Source: Rubellimicrobium arenae
GTDB lineage: Bacteria > Pseudomonadota > Alphaproteobacteria > Rhodobacterales > Rhodobacteraceae
Length of the DNA stretch: 64,000 nucleotides
Assembly: GCF_017916275.1 (NCBI RefSeq)
Contig: NZ_JAFMST010000001.1
Location: 248,001 to 312,000, forward strand
Reading direction: 5' to 3'
Shown here: positions 16,050 to 47,500 of the stretch, one piece after another
How positions within the stretch are numbered: position 1 is the first letter of the stretch
Layout: each line of letters starts with the position of its first letter
The notes under the pieces: generated by a model
What the model saw: the letters and a program-made list of their open reading frames with translations, nothing else
The model's database searches: none
What the model was told of the DNA's origin: nothing
Translations under genes and position numbers: made by a program

Positions 16050-16511
16050 TCAGGTCGGATGCGCCTCGGCTTCCTCGGTCGCGCGTTCGTCGGACATGGT
16101 GCCCCCCTCGGGCTCGGCCGAGATGATCCAGTGGGTGCCGAAGCGGTCCCGGACCATGCCGAAGCCCCGCGAGAAGAAGGTGGGGGCAAAGTCCTGGAGG
16201 ACGTCGCCACCCTCGGACAGCCGGTCGAAGGCGGACCGCGCGGCCCCGGGGTCGGGGAAGGTCTGCATGACGGACACGCCCTGCTGGCGGTCGCCGTCCA
16301 TCCCCGGCGGGAAATCCGAGGCCATGAGGAGCCCGCCGGCCGTCCGGATCTGGCCGTGCATGACCCGGTCCGAGCCCGCCCATCCCTCCGGGGCGTTCGG
16401 GCTTTCGGCGTAGCGCATCACGGCGAGGTCGGTGCCGCCCAGGGCTTCGGCGTAGAAGGCCAGCGCCTCGGCGCAGCGGCCCTGGAAATGCAGGTAGGGG
16501 ATTGTGGCCAT
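16050..16511 (-). CDS. PhnB-like VOC family protein (copy 1)
   Basis: A 153-residue vicinal-oxygen-chelate (glyoxalase/bleomycin-resistance fold) protein of the PhnB / 3-demethylubiquinone-methyltransferase-like group. Recognised by MATIPYLHFQGRCAEALAFYAEALGG, MHGQIRTAGGLLMASDFPPG, and FFSRGFGMVRDRFGTHWII. The last ~20 residues are a hydrophilic acidic tail. Its start overlaps the stop of the next VOC gene by one base (TGATG), so the two are translationally coupled and share the LexA box at 16966. Substrate unknown. Confidence 0.85.
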   Translation of the reverse strand: MATIPYLHFQGRCAEALAFYAEALGGTDLAVMRYAESPNAPEGWAGSDRVMHGQIRTAGGLLMASDFPPGMDGDRQQGVSVMQTFPDPGAARSAFDRLSEGGDVLQDFAPTFFSRGFGMVRDRFGTHWIISAEPEGGTMSDERATEEAEAHPT

Positions 16512-16927
16512 CAGGGGACCGGCGCGGGGGCGGGCTGCGATTCGGTGTCGATCATCCAGCGCGTGCCGAACCGGTCCGTGAGGCTGCCGAACCCGGGGGA
16601 CCAGAAGGTGGATTCGTAGGGCATCTCGATCTCGCCCCCTTCGGCCAGGGCGTCGAAGACGCGGCGGCCCTCGGACGTCGTGGGATAGGTGAGCGTGATG
16701 GAGTTCCCGGCCATCGGAACGGCCTTGGAATAGTCCGAGGCGTAAAGCCAACCGTCCCCGATCCGGAGCGCGGCGTGCATGACGCTGTCGGGGTCGCCCC
16801 AGCTTTCGCCGGAGGGCGCGTCGGCGGCCTTCATGATCTGCGGATCGGGCGAGCCGAAGATGCGGGCGTAGGTGCGAAGCGCCTCCTCGGCGGTGCCGTC
16901 GAAGAACAGGTAAGGGATCGGGGCCAT
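16511..16927 (-). CDS. PhnB-like VOC family protein (copy 2)
   Basis: A 138-residue paralogue of copy 1: MAPIPYLFFDGTAEEALRTYARIFG, MHAALRIGDGWLYASDYSKA, and FWSPGFGSLTDRFGTRWMID. It is the first gene of a two-gene transcript. A GGAGGA ribosome-binding site precedes the ATG at 16927, and a perfect LexA-type operator lies 38 bases upstream of the start. Function unknown; members of this group have been linked to resistance and to metal-dependent enzymes, but no role can be read from the sequence. Confidence 0.85.
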   Translation of the reverse strand: MAPIPYLFFDGTAEEALRTYARIFGSPDPQIMKAADAPSGESWGDPDSVMHAALRIGDGWLYASDYSKAVPMAGNSITLTYPTTSEGRRVFDALAEGGEIEMPYESTFWSPGFGSLTDRFGTRWMIDTESQPAPAPVP

Positions 16928-16965
16928 GCTGATTCCTCCGGGGTTGGGTGACGCTAGGTTAACAT

Positions 16966-16980
16966 GTTCCTATTTCGTTC
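16966..16980 (-). promoter_or_regulatory. LexA (SOS) box upstream of VOC copies 2 and 1
   Basis: GTTC-CTATTTC-GTTC is a perfect match to the alphaproteobacterial LexA operator GTTC-N7-GTTC. It ends 38 bases before the start of the VOC gene at 16927. The Pmp3-like gene diverges from the same region, about 80 bases away. Confidence 0.75.
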
Positions 16981-17059
16981 CAAAGCGCCGCATCGCGCCG
17001 CTGTCCGATTTCCGCCGATGGGGGATGAAGCGAGCCGGGCGAGCCCCCATATGCGGCCT

Positions 17060-17263
17060 ATGAACTATGTGCTCGCCCTCCTCCTCCCGCCCTTGTCGAT
17101 CCTCCTTGCGGGTCGGCCCATCCTCGCCGTCGTGGTGTTCCTGTTCTGGCTGCCCGCCATCATCTTCTCGGGCGGGCTGGGGCACCCGATCTTCATCCTG
17201 CTGGCCTGGATCATCATCTGGCAGAAGCAGGAGGACCGGCGCGTCCGACGCTTCGACCGCTAG
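17060..17263 (+). CDS. Pmp3/YqaE (UPF0057)-type membrane peptide
   Basis: A 67-residue peptide with two membrane helices: NYVLALLLPPLSILLAGRP (a good match to the family's LLPP-x-x-[VI]-L start) and FILLAWIIIWQKQ, with FWLPAIIFSGGLGHPIF in between. Pmp3-type peptides affect membrane potential and stress tolerance. The ATG at 17060 fits the family start; another ATG three codons upstream (17051) is open. No clear ribosome-binding site is seen. Its stop overlaps the end of the convergent VOC copy 3 by 4 bases. Confidence 0.75.
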   Translation: MNYVLALLLPPLSILLAGRPILAVVVFLFWLPAIIFSGGLGHPIFILLAWIIIWQKQEDRRVRRFDR

Positions 17264-17649
17264 GCCCCGCCACGGGGGGCGGCGATGGCGTCCACCATCC
17301 ATCGCGTCCCCCAGCGGTCCGTGACCCGGCCGAATCCCGGCGACCAGTCGGTCGCGCCATAGGGAGTTTCGACCCGGCCCCCATGGGACAGGGCGTCGAA
17401 GACGCGCTGCCCTTCGCCGGGGTCGGACAGCGTCACGGCCATCGCCGTGCCCGCGCCCGGGTCGGCGCGGCAGGGATCCGGGACGGCATGCCATCCGCGG
17501 GCGGTGTGGACCGAGGCATAGACGAGCGGGTTCGGGAAGGCCGATGCAGGGCAGGGGCGTCCGGCCTGCGGGCGCGGCCGGAAGATCGCGGCGTAGGTGC
17601 GCCGCGCGTCCGCGCAGGAGCCCTCGAACGTGAAGCAGGGAATGGTCAT
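17260..17649 (-). CDS. PhnB-like VOC family protein (copy 3)
   Basis: A 129-residue paralogue of the two VOC genes nearby: MTIPCFTFEGSCADARRTYAAIFR, and DWSPGFGRVTDRWGTRWMVD at the end. The middle is more divergent and lacks the second paralogue's ASDY segment. It has its own LexA-type operator 39 bases upstream, almost the same distance as for copy 2, which argues for a shared promoter design. Function unknown. Confidence 0.8.
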   Translation of the reverse strand: MTIPCFTFEGSCADARRTYAAIFRPRPQAGRPCPASAFPNPLVYASVHTARGWHAVPDPCRADPGAGTAMAVTLSDPGEGQRVFDALSHGGRVETPYGATDWSPGFGRVTDRWGTRWMVDAIAAPRGGA

Positions 17650-17688
17650 GACCGATTCCTTTCCTTGGGCAGGGGTTCAACATATCAT

Positions 17689-17703
17689 GTTCCCTTTTTG
17701 TTC
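17689..17703 (-). promoter_or_regulatory. LexA (SOS) box upstream of VOC copy 3
   Basis: GTTC-CCTTTTT-GTTC matches GTTC-N7-GTTC exactly and lies 39 bases before the start at 17649. Confidence 0.75.
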
Positions 17704-17770
17704 CCAAGCCTTGCTTGCGGTCGGGCGAAGGTCGCCCTAGAAGCGCGGCGTTTTGGTCACGGAGACGAGC

Positions 17771-19270: not shown

Positions 19271-20728
19271 TCAGGCGGCCATCAGCTTGTCGAGATGTTC
19301 GCGGGCGGCGGTGAGGTCCTGGCGGAACTTCTCGGTCTCGAGCTCCTTGGCGACGGGATCGGGCAGGCGGAGCAGGAAGCTCGGGTGCACCGTCAGGAAG
19401 ACGGGGATGCCGTCAGGGCCGGATTCGACCGTGCCGCGCCGCTTGAGGATGCCATCGCGCGAGCCGGTGAGCGATTCCGCCGCCGAGGCGCCCAGCGCCA
19501 CGAGGAGCTTGGGCCGGACCAGCGACACCTCCTGCTGGAGCCACCACTTGCAGGCCGAGATCTCGCCGCCGTTGGGGCTCTGGTGGATGCGGCGGACGCC
19601 CTTGATCGTGTACTTGAAGTGCTTGACCGCGTTGGTGAGGAAGACCTTGGAGCGGTCGATGCCGGTGTCGCGCAGGATCTGGTCGAAGAGTTGCCCCGCC
19701 GGGCCGACGAAGGGGCGGCCGGCCAGATCCTCCTGATCGCCGGGCTGTTCGCCCACCATCATCAGCGCCGCGTCCAAGGGTCCTTCGCCGGGGACGGCCT
19801 GCGTCGCGTGGGCATGGAGCGGGCAGCGGGTGCAGGCGTCCTCCTCCTCCTTGAGGGCGGAGATCAGGCCGGGTGCGGCGAGGGGAGTTCTGGGCGGCGC
19901 GGGACGGGCGGCGATGGCCTTGGCGTAGAAGGGCGCGCGGGTCGGCGCGGCCTCGGCCATGGCGCGGACGCGGGTTTCGGCATTGGCGAGGAGGTCGGGG
20001 ATGGCGGCGGTCTCGGGCAGGTTCTTCCAGTAGCGCTTGGGCATCTCGGCCAGCATGCGGGCGGTCTTGACCCGCGCCGGATTGAAGATGTTGCGGAAAT
20101 AGGTGAGCCAGAGATCCTCGGCCGCGTCGTCGGGCAGGTCGGGCTTTTCGGCCCCTTCCTCGAAGGTGGTGACGCCATCCTCGAAGCGGGCCACGAGGTC
20201 GGGCGTGGCGATCAGCCAGTCCATGTCGGCGAAGCGACGGGCAAAGAAGGGCGCGGCGGGTTCGAGGGTGAAATGCGCGGGCTCGAACCAGGCGGCGAAG
20301 CGGCGGCGCGGGGCGGTGCGGTCGCCGATCTCGCGGAAGCGGACAAAGGCCTTGAGCTTGTGGAGGTCGCGGTGGACCGCCCGTTCCATCTGGCGGAGCG
20401 CGGTCAGGTCCTTGTCGGCCGGGTCCTGCATGAGGCCCGATTCGGTGCGCAGGCGCCACAGGACGGCGTAAAGGCGGGCGAAGCGTTCGGGGTCCTTGTG
20501 CCAGACCACCTGCGCGGCGAGGTGGACGAAGTTCTCGGGGACGCGGATCGCCCCGACCTTGGGCGCGGGCGGCGGCTCATCCTCGGCCCAAAGGACGGCC
20601 TCGCCGGGGCCGCGGCTCCAGGTGATCGCCTCGGGCGGGATGCGCGCGGACAGGCAGGCGCGGGCGGCCTCGCGCCAAGCCTCGGCGGTGCCGACCTTCG
20701 GGAGCGTCACATGGGGCATGAGGTTCAT
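19271..20728 (-). CDS. UdgX-type uracil-DNA glycosylase fused to a DUF4130 domain
   Basis: A 485-residue fusion. The N-terminal half (about 1-260) matches the DUF4130/TIGR03915 domain that is linked with DNA metabolism. The C-terminal half is a family-4-like uracil-DNA glycosylase with an iron-sulfur cysteine CTRCPLHAHATQ, GEQPGDQEDLAGRPFVGPAGQ, NAVKHFKY, and HPSFLLR. The segment KGVRRIHQSP carries the RRIH loop typical of UdgX, which links covalently to uracil in DNA. The next upstream gene is the radical SAM partner with which this protein nearly always occurs. The first ATG lies inside a LexA box; a second in-frame ATG at 20719 is an alternative start. Confidence 0.88.
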   Translation of the reverse strand: MNLMPHVTLPKVGTAEAWREAARACLSARIPPEAITWSRGPGEAVLWAEDEPPPAPKVGAIRVPENFVHLAAQVVWHKDPERFARLYAVLWRLRTESGLMQDPADKDLTALRQMERAVHRDLHKLKAFVRFREIGDRTAPRRRFAAWFEPAHFTLEPAAPFFARRFADMDWLIATPDLVARFEDGVTTFEEGAEKPDLPDDAAEDLWLTYFRNIFNPARVKTARMLAEMPKRYWKNLPETAAIPDLLANAETRVRAMAEAAPTRAPFYAKAIAARPAPPRTPLAAPGLISALKEEEDACTRCPLHAHATQAVPGEGPLDAALMMVGEQPGDQEDLAGRPFVGPAGQLFDQILRDTGIDRSKVFLTNAVKHFKYTIKGVRRIHQSPNGGEISACKWWLQQEVSLVRPKLLVALGASAAESLTGSRDGILKRRGTVESGPDGIPVFLTVHPSFLLRLPDPVAKELETEKFRQDLTAAREHLDKLMAA

Positions 20729-20737
20729 GTATTGTTC
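20723..20737 (-). promoter_or_regulatory. LexA (SOS) box overlapping the start of the UdgX-type gene
   Basis: On the plus strand GTTC-ATGTATT-GTTC, a perfect GTTC-N7-GTTC; read toward the gene it is GAAC-N7-GAAC. It overlaps the first ATG (20726-20728). No ribosome-binding site is visible in front, so transcription may begin inside the box and use either a leaderless ATG or the ATG at 20719. Confidence 0.75.
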
Positions 20738-20802: not shown

Positions 20803-22038
20803 TCAGAACAGGCTGAGCTGTTCGGGTTCGGGCGCGAAGCGGGCGCGCAGGTCGGCACTGTCGGTGAGCGCCCCGGGGCTCCAGTCCGGCAGGGTGATGA
20901 AGGGCCGCGCCTTCTTGAGCGACGCCCCCATGCGAAGGAGGTCGTCGTAGCGCAGGCCGCGGTGCCGGCGCGTCTGGAGGACGCGGTCCACCGTCCTGGT
21001 GCCGAAGCCGGGGACGCGGAGCAGCATCTCGCGCGGGGCGCGCTGGACGTCGACCGGGAAGTGCTGCCGGTTCCGGAGCGCCCAGGCGAGCTTGGGGTCG
21101 ATCTGGAGGTCGAGGTTGCCGTCCTGCGCGATCTCGTCGGGCGAGAACTCGTAGAAGCGCATGAGCCAGTCGGCCTGGTAGAGCCGATGCTCGCGCAGGA
21201 GGGGCGGCGTCACCAGGGGAAGCTTGGCGGTCGAATCCGGGATGGGTGAGAAGGCCGAGTAATAGACCCGCTTGAGCCCATAGGAGCCGTAAAGGCGCGC
21301 GCTTTGCTGGAGGATCGTCGCGTCGTTCGTGGCGTCGGCGCCCACGATCATCTGGGTGGACTGGCCGGCCGGCGCGAACCTGGGCGCCGCGGTGCCCTGG
21401 AGGGACCGGTCGCTGGCCGCCTCGCGCCCGAGCCGGATGTCGGCCATGTGCTTGCGGATCTCGGCGGGCTTCTTTTCGGGCGCGAAGTCGGCGAGGCTTT
21501 GTTCGGTCGGAAGCTCGATATTGACCGACAGGCGGTCGGCGTAGAGCCCGGCCTCGGCCACCAGCGCGGGGTCGGCGCCGGGGATGGTCTTAAGGTGGAT
21601 GTAGCCGCGGAAGTCATGCTCTTCGCGCAGGGTCCTCACGATGCGGACCATGTCGCGCATCGTGTCGTCGGGCGACCGGATGATGCCCGAGGACAGGAAC
21701 AGCCCCTCGATGTAGTTGCGCCGATAGAATTCGAGGGTGAGGGTCACGACCTCCTCGGGCGTGAACCGGGCGCGCTGCACGTTCGAACTGACGCGGTTCA
21801 CGCAATAGGCGCAGTCGAAGATGCAGAAGTTGGTCATCAGGATCTTGAGCAGCGACACGCAGCGGCCATCCGGCGTGAAGCTATGGCAGATGCCGTTGCC
21901 ATCCGTGGAGCCCAGGCCCTTGCCGTCGCGGGAATCGCGGCGGGAGGTGCCGGACGAGGCACAGGAGGCGTCGTAGCGGGCTGCGTCCGAGAGGATCGCG
22001 AGCTTTTCCTGAAGGTTGGGTGCGGACATGACGTTCAT
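20803..22038 (-). CDS. Putative DNA modification/repair radical SAM protein
   Basis: A 411-residue radical SAM protein of the TIGR03916 type that is found linked to the UDG/DUF4130 fusion. The iron-sulfur motif CIFDCAYC is at about residue 77, after GICHSFTPDGRCVSLLKILMTN. Further motifs are FLSSGIIRSPDDTM, GYIHLKTIPGA, and a C-terminal helix-hairpin-helix-like segment (LLRVPGFGTRTVDRVLQTRR) that suits DNA binding. The reaction is unknown. It lies 74 bases upstream of the glycosylase on the same strand, and both have nearly identical operator/start regions. A second ATG at 22029 is an alternative start. Confidence 0.88.
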   Translation of the reverse strand: MNVMSAPNLQEKLAILSDAARYDASCASSGTSRRDSRDGKGLGSTDGNGICHSFTPDGRCVSLLKILMTNFCIFDCAYCVNRVSSNVQRARFTPEEVVTLTLEFYRRNYIEGLFLSSGIIRSPDDTMRDMVRIVRTLREEHDFRGYIHLKTIPGADPALVAEAGLYADRLSVNIELPTEQSLADFAPEKKPAEIRKHMADIRLGREAASDRSLQGTAAPRFAPAGQSTQMIVGADATNDATILQQSARLYGSYGLKRVYYSAFSPIPDSTAKLPLVTPPLLREHRLYQADWLMRFYEFSPDEIAQDGNLDLQIDPKLAWALRNRQHFPVDVQRAPREMLLRVPGFGTRTVDRVLQTRRHRGLRYDDLLRMGASLKKARPFITLPDWSPGALTDSADLRARFAPEPEQLSLF

Positions 22039-22047
22039 CTATTGTTC
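22033..22047 (-). promoter_or_regulatory. LexA (SOS) box overlapping the start of the radical SAM gene
   Basis: On the plus strand GTTC-ATCTATT-GTTC, a perfect GTTC-N7-GTTC. It overlaps the first ATG (22036-22038), exactly as in the glycosylase gene. Confidence 0.75.
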
Positions 22048-31768: not shown

Positions 31769-31794
31769 GTTCCTGCTATGTTCTTGTTATGTTC
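31769..31794 (+). promoter_or_regulatory. Two overlapping LexA (SOS) boxes
   Basis: Three GTTC half-sites (31769, 31780, 31791), each separated by exactly 7 bases, form two GTTC-N7-GTTC operators that share the central half-site. They end 28 bases before the start codon at 31823. Confidence 0.8.
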
Positions 31795-31822: not shown

Positions 31823-32332
31823 ATGTCCCAGCATCCGCCCTCCCCGTCGTCCGACGACATCGTGCAGGCCCTCCTGGCTCTCGCCACGCGCGAGCACCTG
31901 GGCGAGGGCGTGACATGGGCGGAGGTGGAGGCGGCGATCAACCAGCTGGTGGACCGCCCCAGGGCCGCCCGGTTGCTGCGCGAGGCCCTGGAAAGGCTCG
32001 ACAATCCCAAGACGGCCCTGAACATCGCCGACTGGCTGGACCAGGCGGCCCGAAGCCGCGAGGCCGATGCGCGCGCCGCCGGGCGCAGCGGCGAGAAGTT
32101 CCTGGCTCCGCTTCAGGGCGTCAGCCTCGGGGCGCTGGCCACCTCGGGCTTCGCCTATGCGGCCGGCACCCTGGACGGGATCGTGTCGGCCTGCGTGGGG
32201 TCGGCGGCGTTCCTGCTGGCCGGAGCCTCGACGACGGGGCGCTGGATGCTGTCGCGCCGGGAGGATCTGGCCCGGCAGGACGCCGAAGCCCTCAGGCGGC
32301 TCGCGGAGATCGCCCAGTCCCGCGAGGCCTGA
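31823..32332 (+). CDS. LexA-controlled membrane protein of unknown function
   Basis: A 169-residue protein that I do not recognise. Residues 1-90 are soluble and helical (DDIVQALLALATREHLGEGVTWAEVEAAINQLVDR), residues ~105-140 form one or two hydrophobic helices (GALATSGFAYAAGTLDGIVSACVGSAAFLLAGAS), and the end is charged (LSRREDLARQDAEALRRLAEIAQ). The ATG at 31823 lies just after the double LexA box; an open GTG-initiated extension from 31763 would read through the operator and is less likely. Damage-inducible expression is inferred from the operator. Confidence 0.7.
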   Translation: MSQHPPSPSSDDIVQALLALATREHLGEGVTWAEVEAAINQLVDRPRAARLLREALERLDNPKTALNIADWLDQAARSREADARAAGRSGEKFLAPLQGVSLGALATSGFAYAAGTLDGIVSACVGSAAFLLAGASTTGRWMLSRREDLARQDAEALRRLAEIAQSREA

Positions 32333-44566: not shown

Positions 44567-47500
44567 CTAGATGGGCTGCACGGCCGTTGGCAAGCCGTGG
44601 GCCGGTTCGACGGCGTCCTCGACACGGAAGGCCTTCCCGAGGAACCAGCCTCCTGCATCGCTTATCCTTTCGACCACGCTGAACAGCGACGGTACGAAGA
44701 GGAGGGAGAGCAGGGTCGAGAGCAGCAGGCCCCCGATCACCGCGATAGCCATGGGTGCGCGGAACTCGCCACCGGTGCTATGGGCAAGGGCCGAGGGCAC
44801 CATACCCGCGGCCATTGCAATGGTGGTCATGATGATGGGTCGCGCCCGCTTGTGGCCCGCCTCAATCATCGCAGTGGCCCGGTCAGTACCGTTCCGGGAC
44901 GCCTCGAGGGCGAACTCTACGAGCATGATGGCGTTCTTGGTCACGATGCCCATCAGCATTAGGAAGCCGATTACCACCGACAGCCCAATGCCCGCACCGT
45001 AGAGGTAGAGGGCGAAGATAGCGCCGCCGATGGCCAGCGGCAGCGACAGGAGGATTGTGACAGGCGTCACGAAGCTGCCGAACAGAAGCACGAGCACCAC
45101 GTAAACGAGCAGGACCCCCGCCCCCATCGCCAGCGCAAAGCTCGAGAAGACTTCGTTCATGGTCTCCACATCGCCGGCAGCCTGGATCGATGTCCCCTCG
45201 GGCATCGCGGCGGCGATAGGGAGTTGCATGATGGCCTGGTTTGCGGGGCCAAGGACTGCGCCTTCGGCCAGGTCGGCCTCAACAGCGACTCGGTAGCTCT
45301 GATCGTAGCGCTCGATGACGCTCGGCCCCGTGGCGAGGCGGATGTCGGCTAGGACCGCGAAGGGGACCTGTGCTCCGGTGGAAGAGCGCACACGCAGGCC
45401 AATAAGTTGCGAAAGATCGTTGCGCGCAGCCTCAGCCAAGCGCACCCGGATGGGGATCTGCTCCTCGCCTGCATCGAACTGCGCGAGGTTGGAGTCGCTA
45501 TCGCCCAACGTCGCCACTCTGATGGTTGAAGCTAAGGTCACCGCGTTGACCCCCAGCTCGGCAGCGATCTCAGGCCGGGGGGTGATCTGGATCTCTGGCC
45601 GTACTAGGGCCGCCTCGGTCGAGACAGCACGCAATTCGGGCAGTGTCTTCATTTCCTGAGCAAGCGCCCGTGCGGCCGTCGAAGCCGCGACCTCGGTGTC
45701 GCCCAGCACGTTGATGGATATGTCGCGCTGCTGGTTCTCGTTCAGCAGGAAAAGTCGGACGTCGGGAATATCCGCCACGCGTGCTGCAATCTCTTGGTCA
45801 ATCTCTGCGCCGGCGCGCTCGCGCGCTTCCTTCTCGCCGTAGTTGATCTGCACGTTGACGGCAGTCGCGGAGGAGCCGTCGACGAAGATGCCCTCGACCT
45901 CCGGGATCTCAGCGAGGAGGTTGGTGACCTCTTGTCCCACGGCCCGGGCTTCCGCGAGCGTGGAGCCGGGCGGTAGTTCGATCGAGATGGCCGCACGGCC
46001 GGTGTCGCTGGCCGGGATAAACTCGGTCGGCAGAAGCGTGGCGGAGTAGATGGAGCCCGCGAAGACGAAGATACCCAAGACAAGGGTCACAAGGCGGTGG
46101 CGCAGGGTCCAGCCGAGAATGCGGAGGTAGTTCCGCATGAGCCAACCATCTGGTGTCTCGTGTCCTGCTCTATGGCTTCGCAGGAAATAGGCTGCGAACA
46201 TAGGCGTGATGAGGCGTGCCACGAGCAGCGAAAACAGCACCGCGACCGCCACGGTGATCCCAAACTGCTTGAAGTACTGGCCGGCAATACCGGGCATGAA
46301 GCTCACGGGGGCAAAGACCGCCACAATGGTGAAGCTGATGGCGATCACCGTGGTACCGATCTCGGCCGCAGCCTCCATGGCAGCATCGAAGGCCCGCTGG
46401 CCGGCTTGGATGTGGCGGACGATATTCTCGATCTCGACGATGGCATCGTCCACCAGGATCCCAGTCACGAGTGTAATCCCGAGGAGGCTCACGGTGTTGA
46501 GCGAGAAGCCCAGCAGATCCATCACGATGAACGTGGGGATGATCGACAGCGGCAACGCGACCGCTGTCACAATCGTGGCGCGCCAATCACGAAGGAACAG
46601 GAACACAACGATGATGGCCAGGGCCGCGCCCTCGTAGAGCGTGTCCATGGCGGAATGGTAGTTGGCCTCGGTGTAGACGGTCGCGTCGTCCACAAGCGCG
46701 AAGCGTGTGTCGGTATACCGCTCCGCCAGCGCGGCGAGCCGCTCCTTGACCGCCTCGGCCGCAACGAGGTCGCTCTCGCCCGTGGCGCGGAAGACGCCGA
46801 AAGCCACCACGGGTTGGCCATCAAAGAGCGCGAAGTTCTCGGCCTCGCTCGCGCCGTCGCTGATCGTGCCCAGTTGGTCGAGCCGGATCGTGTCCCCGGT
46901 GCCAAGGCGGATCGCGGTCTGCCCAAGCGCACGAACGGAGGCCGCTGAGCCCAGTGCCCGGATCGAGTATTCCTGTCCGGCTAGATCCCCCTCGCCGCTT
47001 CCCACATCCGCGTTGCTCTGCGCCACCTGAGCGTTCACGTCGGCGGCAGTGAGCCCGAAGGCGAGGAGACGGTTCGGGTCGAGTTCTACCCGGATCTCGC
47101 GCTCGGCCCCGCCCAGGCGCGTGACCCGGCCCACACCCGCGGCAGCCTGGAGCTCACGGGCGACGACCTCGTCCACAAAGTAGGACAGCTCCTCGATCGA
47201 GCGGGTGGGATCGGAGACGGCATAGGTCAGAATGGCGCCGCCTGTCACATCGAGGCGCTGTACGACGGGCTCAGTCACATCGTCAGGGAGCTCTTGGCGA
47301 ATGCTGGAGATTGCGTCCTTGACGTCGTTGACGGCCCGGTCGGTGTCCGTGCCGATCTCGAACTCGATCGTGAGCCTTGCCGCACCGTCGTTGGCTGTGG
47401 CTGAGACGTGACGTACACCATCCACGTCCCGCACCTCGGCCTCGATCGGCTGGACGATCTGGCCCACAACTTCGGAGGGAGCCGCACCGGCCAGGTCCAC

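Follow-up and report, generated by a model that had tools for sequence, protein, structure and literature searches.

PhnB-like VOC proteins are widespread and, to our knowledge, mostly without a known role. Three of their genes in Rubellimicrobium arenae, lying behind two perfect copies of a LexA motif, raise the question of whether members of this family have been placed under the control of the DNA-damage response. The original prediction was made on a stretch of 64,000 nucleotides of this genome (the whole of which is called the window here) and described perfect boxes 38 and 39 bases from the start codons of VOC-A and VOC-C, respectively; both the sequences and the distances were confirmed. 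GTTC-N7-GTTC is the LexA motif of the Alphaproteobacteria (PMC3323433), and both boxes read in this form on the forward strand and as GAAC-N7-GAAC in the orientation of the genes. The features of the locus, in window coordinates, are as follows.

16050 to 16511, reverse strand: VOC-B, PhnB-like VOC protein of 153 aa, downstream gene of the operon (PF06983, 29.4 bits; older separate branch)
16511 to 16927, reverse strand: VOC-A, PhnB-like VOC protein of 138 aa (PF06983, 40.3 bits; predicted model)
16956 to 16961, reverse strand: VOC-A promoter, putative -10-like element (TAACCT), 17 bp past the -35
16966 to 16980, reverse strand: predicted LexA box before the VOC-A/B operon, GAACGAAATAGGAAC when read in the direction of the genes; perfect motif, conserved in the genus
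16979 to 16984, reverse strand: VOC-A promoter, putative -35-like element (TTTGGA), assigned by position and by column conservation in aligned promoters
17260 to 17649, reverse strand: VOC-C, diverged VOC-A duplicate of 129 aa without the His of the VMH motif (tree, alignment, codon-position differences)
17679 to 17684, reverse strand: VOC-C promoter, putative -10-like element (TATGTT), assigned from aligned promoters
17689 to 17703, reverse strand: predicted LexA box before VOC-C, GAACAAAAAGGGAAC when read in the direction of the gene; perfect motif, conserved in the genus
17702 to 17707, reverse strand: VOC-C promoter, putative -35-like element (TTGGGA), assigned from aligned promoters

The three proteins are PhnB-like paralogues, as originally described: VOC-A and VOC-B match PF06983, both above the Pfam cut-off of 24, and VOC-C nests among the VOC-A proteins of the genus in the tree. 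The VOC-A and VOC-B genes meet in a TGATG junction, where the ATG of VOC-B overlaps the stop codon of VOC-A by one base. The predicted model of VOC-A (pLDDT 91.4) has PA1353 (1u6l) as its top PDB match, by sequence and by fold, and its best PDB matches are PhnB-like structures. VOC-A and VOC-B thus share the fold and family of PhnB-like/YjdN proteins such as PA1353, but all three proteins fall below the cut-off of 122 for the YjdN equivalog NF007537 (72 bits for VOC-A, 62.6 for VOC-B and 44.7 for VOC-C, for which the model is a weak match) and VOC-C has diverged past the Pfam model. No Pfam family was matched by the VOC-C proteins of four genomes, the PF06983 cut-off not being reached; VOC-C is placed as a PhnB-like paralogue by the tree and by a partial fold match, its predicted model (pLDDT 79.7) matching PA1353 over the C-terminal half.

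The tree of 37 proteins also bears on how the three genes arose. VOC-A and VOC-C of the genus form one group (support 99/95), inside which VOC-C is a clade of its own (100/100) whose branch measures 0.88 changes per column; the exact fork is placed only tentatively (86/80). VOC-B is a separate, older lineage, and in genome G097 a gene of this lineage adjoins an A-type gene, without a box. The His of the VMH motif is kept in VOC-A and VOC-B and lost in all VOC-C proteins of the alignment. Differences among VOC-C genes are more frequent at third (0.43) than at second (0.21) codon positions, a pattern like that of VOC-A and VOC-B, which indicates purifying selection. VOC-A was duplicated within the genus to give VOC-C, which has changed fast and lost the His and is still under purifying selection.

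Whether the boxes themselves could be coincidental was judged from their frequency and conservation. The window holds 7 perfect motif matches against 1.04 expected from shuffles, none of 100 shuffles reaching 7, and the genome (4.55 Mb) holds 114, where the reversed motif gives 64. From the reversed-motif control, the chance of a box in any given 60-bp upstream stretch is ~8e-4, making two boxes before VOC genes unlikely by chance, and their conservation across the genus excludes chance for practical purposes. VOC-A is present in 8/8 Rubellimicrobium genomes, each with a perfect box, which lies 52–61 bases before the gene in seven. In the eighth (G120) a perfect box with the same flanking promoter sequence lies at -196, with an apparent insertion of ~145 bp before VOC-A. 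VOC-C was found in four genomes of the genus, and 4/4 have a perfect box between -52 and -55. The original prediction had been staked on the motif recurring before orthologues in close relatives, and within the genus it does so at every VOC-A and VOC-C promoter. Outside the genus, a perfect box within 130 bases upstream was found in 0/31 relatives, and a search of 395 family and 385 class genomes for the promoter and gene together recovered no further VOC gene, using a pattern that demands a perfect box and a P-Y-x-x-x-F start and so misses weaker cases. Its matches outside the genus (L083–L085, L088 and L141–L145) were rejected because they do not look like a VOC gene behind the promoter, L141 on the basis of its ORF. 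The confinement of the box to one genus implies a function that is not of general importance to the SOS response. LexA regulons vary by lineage, and lineage-specific gain of genes is common.

The promoters offer a finer view of the boxes. Of the 12 VOC-A and VOC-C promoters in the genus, 11 were aligned on the box, leaving out that of VOC-A in G120. The eight motif bases are 100% identical across these promoters and the distal flank of the VOC-A set is 30% identical. They also share AA at box positions 6–7, where the VOC-A box of G120 has TA. Directly before the box is a TTTGGA/TTGRGA-like element, and TAnnnT starts 17 bp later in most promoters, its TA being invariant across the 11. No promoter was called here by a strict scan for the sigma-70 consensus, and the -35 and -10 elements are accordingly assigned from conservation. 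With these assignments, the box would fill the 17-bp gap between the two elements, a natural position for a repressor. Both sets of promoters have the order -35, GAAC-N-AA-N4-GAAC, TAnnnT, and this shared layout, with the nesting of VOC-C in the genus VOC-A proteins, upholds the earlier suggestion that the promoter design was kept after duplication. An inverted repeat (CAAGCCTTGCTTG, 17703–17720) lies just upstream of the VOC-C promoter and is kept in 4/4 genomes with VOC-C.

The same alignment speaks to a different regulator. GGAAC occurs in many of the promoters and could mark an EcfG-type promoter of the general-stress sigma factor (GGAAC-N16/17-GTT), which would tie the genes to general stress and not to DNA damage. 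One of the 11 promoters, that of VOC-C in G122, does fit GGAAC-N16-17-GTT, but the other ten do not, GGAAC varies at its first G, and the second GAAC, useless to an EcfG promoter, is invariant at an exact spacing of 11 bp. An EcfG-type promoter was rejected on this single fit and is, in our judgement, extremely improbable.

A further question is which genes the boxes serve, as both lie in divergent intergenic regions. The VOC-A box is 79 bp from a 67-aa ORF (17060) and the VOC-C box 67 bp from ychF (17771), and the boxes might be real LexA sites whose targets are this putative membrane ORF and ychF. The genus provides the comparison that separates the two sets of candidates. In G000 (the genome of the window), G120, G121 and G122, VOC-C and its box sit between the 67-aa ORF and ychF, the box 82 bases upstream of ychF; in the three examined genomes that have no VOC-C there (G123, G124 and G126), ychF lies 59–87 bases past the 67-aa ORF, without a box. 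In R. rubrum YIM 131921 (G123), VOC-A is ~7.5 kb from ychF and has kept its own box, and the 67-aa ORF, away from VOC-A, has none. The distance from box to VOC gene is also fixed in most genomes, and the -35 and -10 elements face the VOC side. Because ychF and the 67-aa ORF are without a box in the examined genomes that lack the neighbouring VOC gene, the boxes belong to the VOC genes; the divergent genes were ruled out as targets on this evidence, and we hold their control by the boxes to be very unlikely. The 67-aa ORF (17060–17263), hydrophobic and beside ychF, is conserved in the genus and had no Pfam or NCBIfam match. In G126 (L068, L137/L139), VOC-B and ychF are both frame-split, which points to errors in the assembly more than to decay of the genes.

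Control of the VOC genes by LexA is also consistent with the rest of the genome. The surroundings of the motif were examined at 70 loci covering most of the matches listed, with gene starts taken from a simple ORF script and not a full gene caller. Among the matches listed, the distance from the end of the box to the gene start is 50 nt for recA (box GAACAAGACGGGAAC), 29 for lexA (box GAACGGCCCCAGAAC), 65 for uvrA and 43 for uvrD/pcrA, and boxes also stand 56 nt before dprA, 35 before xseA and 31 before nrdJ, the B12-dependent ribonucleotide reductase of the genome. The proposal of LexA control thus gains support from the boxes conserved in the genus and from the same motif at recA, lexA, uvrA, uvrD and dprA. 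The genome has one LexA (a single TIGR00498 match above the cut-off), and with Ala-Gly at 119, Ser in GDSM and Lys in the downstream ATLKR, its sequence is that of a self-cleaving LexA.

Several other boxes were observed. Perfect boxes at 20723–20737 (a UdgX/TIGR03915 fusion) and 22033–22047 (a TIGR03916 radical-SAM repair protein) overlap start codons, and pdeM (L016) has a box at the gene start in the same layout. At 31769–31794 of the window, three tandem GTTC half-sites spaced at 11 bp amount to overlapping perfect boxes at 31769 and 31780, 28 bases before a 169-aa ORF (31823–32329) without a Pfam match, which is likely a LexA-regulated gene. The box at 47072 is inside a long ORF. Elsewhere in this genome, a GNAT-family acetyltransferase gene starts 11 bases past a perfect box (GTTCTCAACTTGTTC; L112 1539), and a gene for a small DUF2934 protein is preceded, at a distance of 21 bases, by a perfect box (L025 1501).

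We favor the reading that the two VOC promoters are repressed by LexA and released by DNA damage, that this control is ancestral in the genus, and that VOC-A was then duplicated together with its promoter, and assign to it a probability of roughly 0.78 from the comparative sequence evidence. The motif, its position and conservation, its attachment to the VOC genes and the duplication are established from the sequence, and binding by LexA with induction by damage is very probable. Repression by LexA and release through RecA-driven cleavage are established LexA biology, applied here to the VOC sites. A LexA dimer on GAAC-N7-GAAC in the -35/-10 spacer would block RNA polymerase; upon DNA damage, activated RecA would promote the self-cleavage of LexA and free the boxes. 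The VOC-A/VOC-B operon would then be expressed alongside the repair genes, as would VOC-C from a promoter of its own. LexA control would date from the common ancestor of the Rubellimicrobium genomes sampled, and the duplication of VOC-A with its promoter would have given rise to VOC-C, fixed beside ychF. One genus appears, from these sequences, to have placed a PhnB-like family under LexA and then to have duplicated one gene along with its promoter.

What the proteins do once produced can be approached through the fold. VOC proteins of known function bind or convert small compounds, which is why we favor a small reactive compound as what these proteins bind or convert, and small-molecule binding or detoxification is our best guess. 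Tentatively, the VOC cavity of VOC-A and VOC-B may bind a small molecule or convert it, which would limit the damage done by a reactive or genotoxic compound, with VOC-C, lacking the conserved His, as a binding or partner subunit. A fuller version, in which the VOC proteins form an SOS module of the genus that captures or destroys a genotoxin, and VOC-C, having given up the His, serves without catalytic activity as a binding or partner subunit and stays under LexA, strikes us as unlikely. The mitomycin resistance protein MRD and the bleomycin-binding proteins share the VOC fold with VOC-A, but at ~12–15% identity and far down its fold list, a link by fold only; a sequence search against the PDB returned PhnB-like structures only, and no sequence-level match to MRD or the bleomycin-binding proteins.

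The LexA-controlled proteins may instead act on nucleotides or another housekeeping metabolite, supplied during recovery, and not on a genotoxin. In G125 (L067, between 828 and 1489) and G121 (L070, between 891 and 1462), and only there, VOC-A and VOC-B are separated by a cytidine/deoxycytidylate-deaminase-like gene; the B12-dependent ribonucleotide reductase also has a box, and we know of no substrate for PhnB-like proteins. The deaminase is missing at that position in the other genomes, however, and may be a passenger. Set against action on a reactive compound, a role in nucleotide metabolism deserves serious consideration, though we hold it to be somewhat unlikely.

Placed beside known systems, the VOC boxes resemble the alphaproteobacterial LexA regulon in having a perfect motif at a promoter position, in common with lexA, recA and uvrA, and differ in that membership of the VOC genes is restricted to Rubellimicrobium. 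PhnB-like or VOC genes were not found as LexA regulon members in the literature searched, and here the VOC genes are a probable lineage-specific addition to the LexA regulon that is new in that literature. The original statement that no role in the SOS response had been described for such proteins holds for this literature and needs qualification more broadly, as damage-inducible VOC proteins are known elsewhere: in Mycobacterium tuberculosis, SigG drives the VOC genes Rv0887c and Rv0911, the former inducible by mitomycin C (PMC3776920). That regulon likewise has two VOC-superfamily genes on one type of damage-linked promoter, but through a sigma factor outside the SOS response, where the Rubellimicrobium genes are predicted to answer to LexA.

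The comparison with the SigG genes suggests that VOC proteins have come under damage control more than once, through different regulators. The Rubellimicrobium locus is a clear example of a regulon that took in a gene family and then spread through the joint duplication of gene and promoter, and the genomes without the VOC-C duplicate serve as natural controls. For the PhnB-like proteins, the conserved link to LexA in one genus provides a condition, DNA damage, under which a substrate may be sought.
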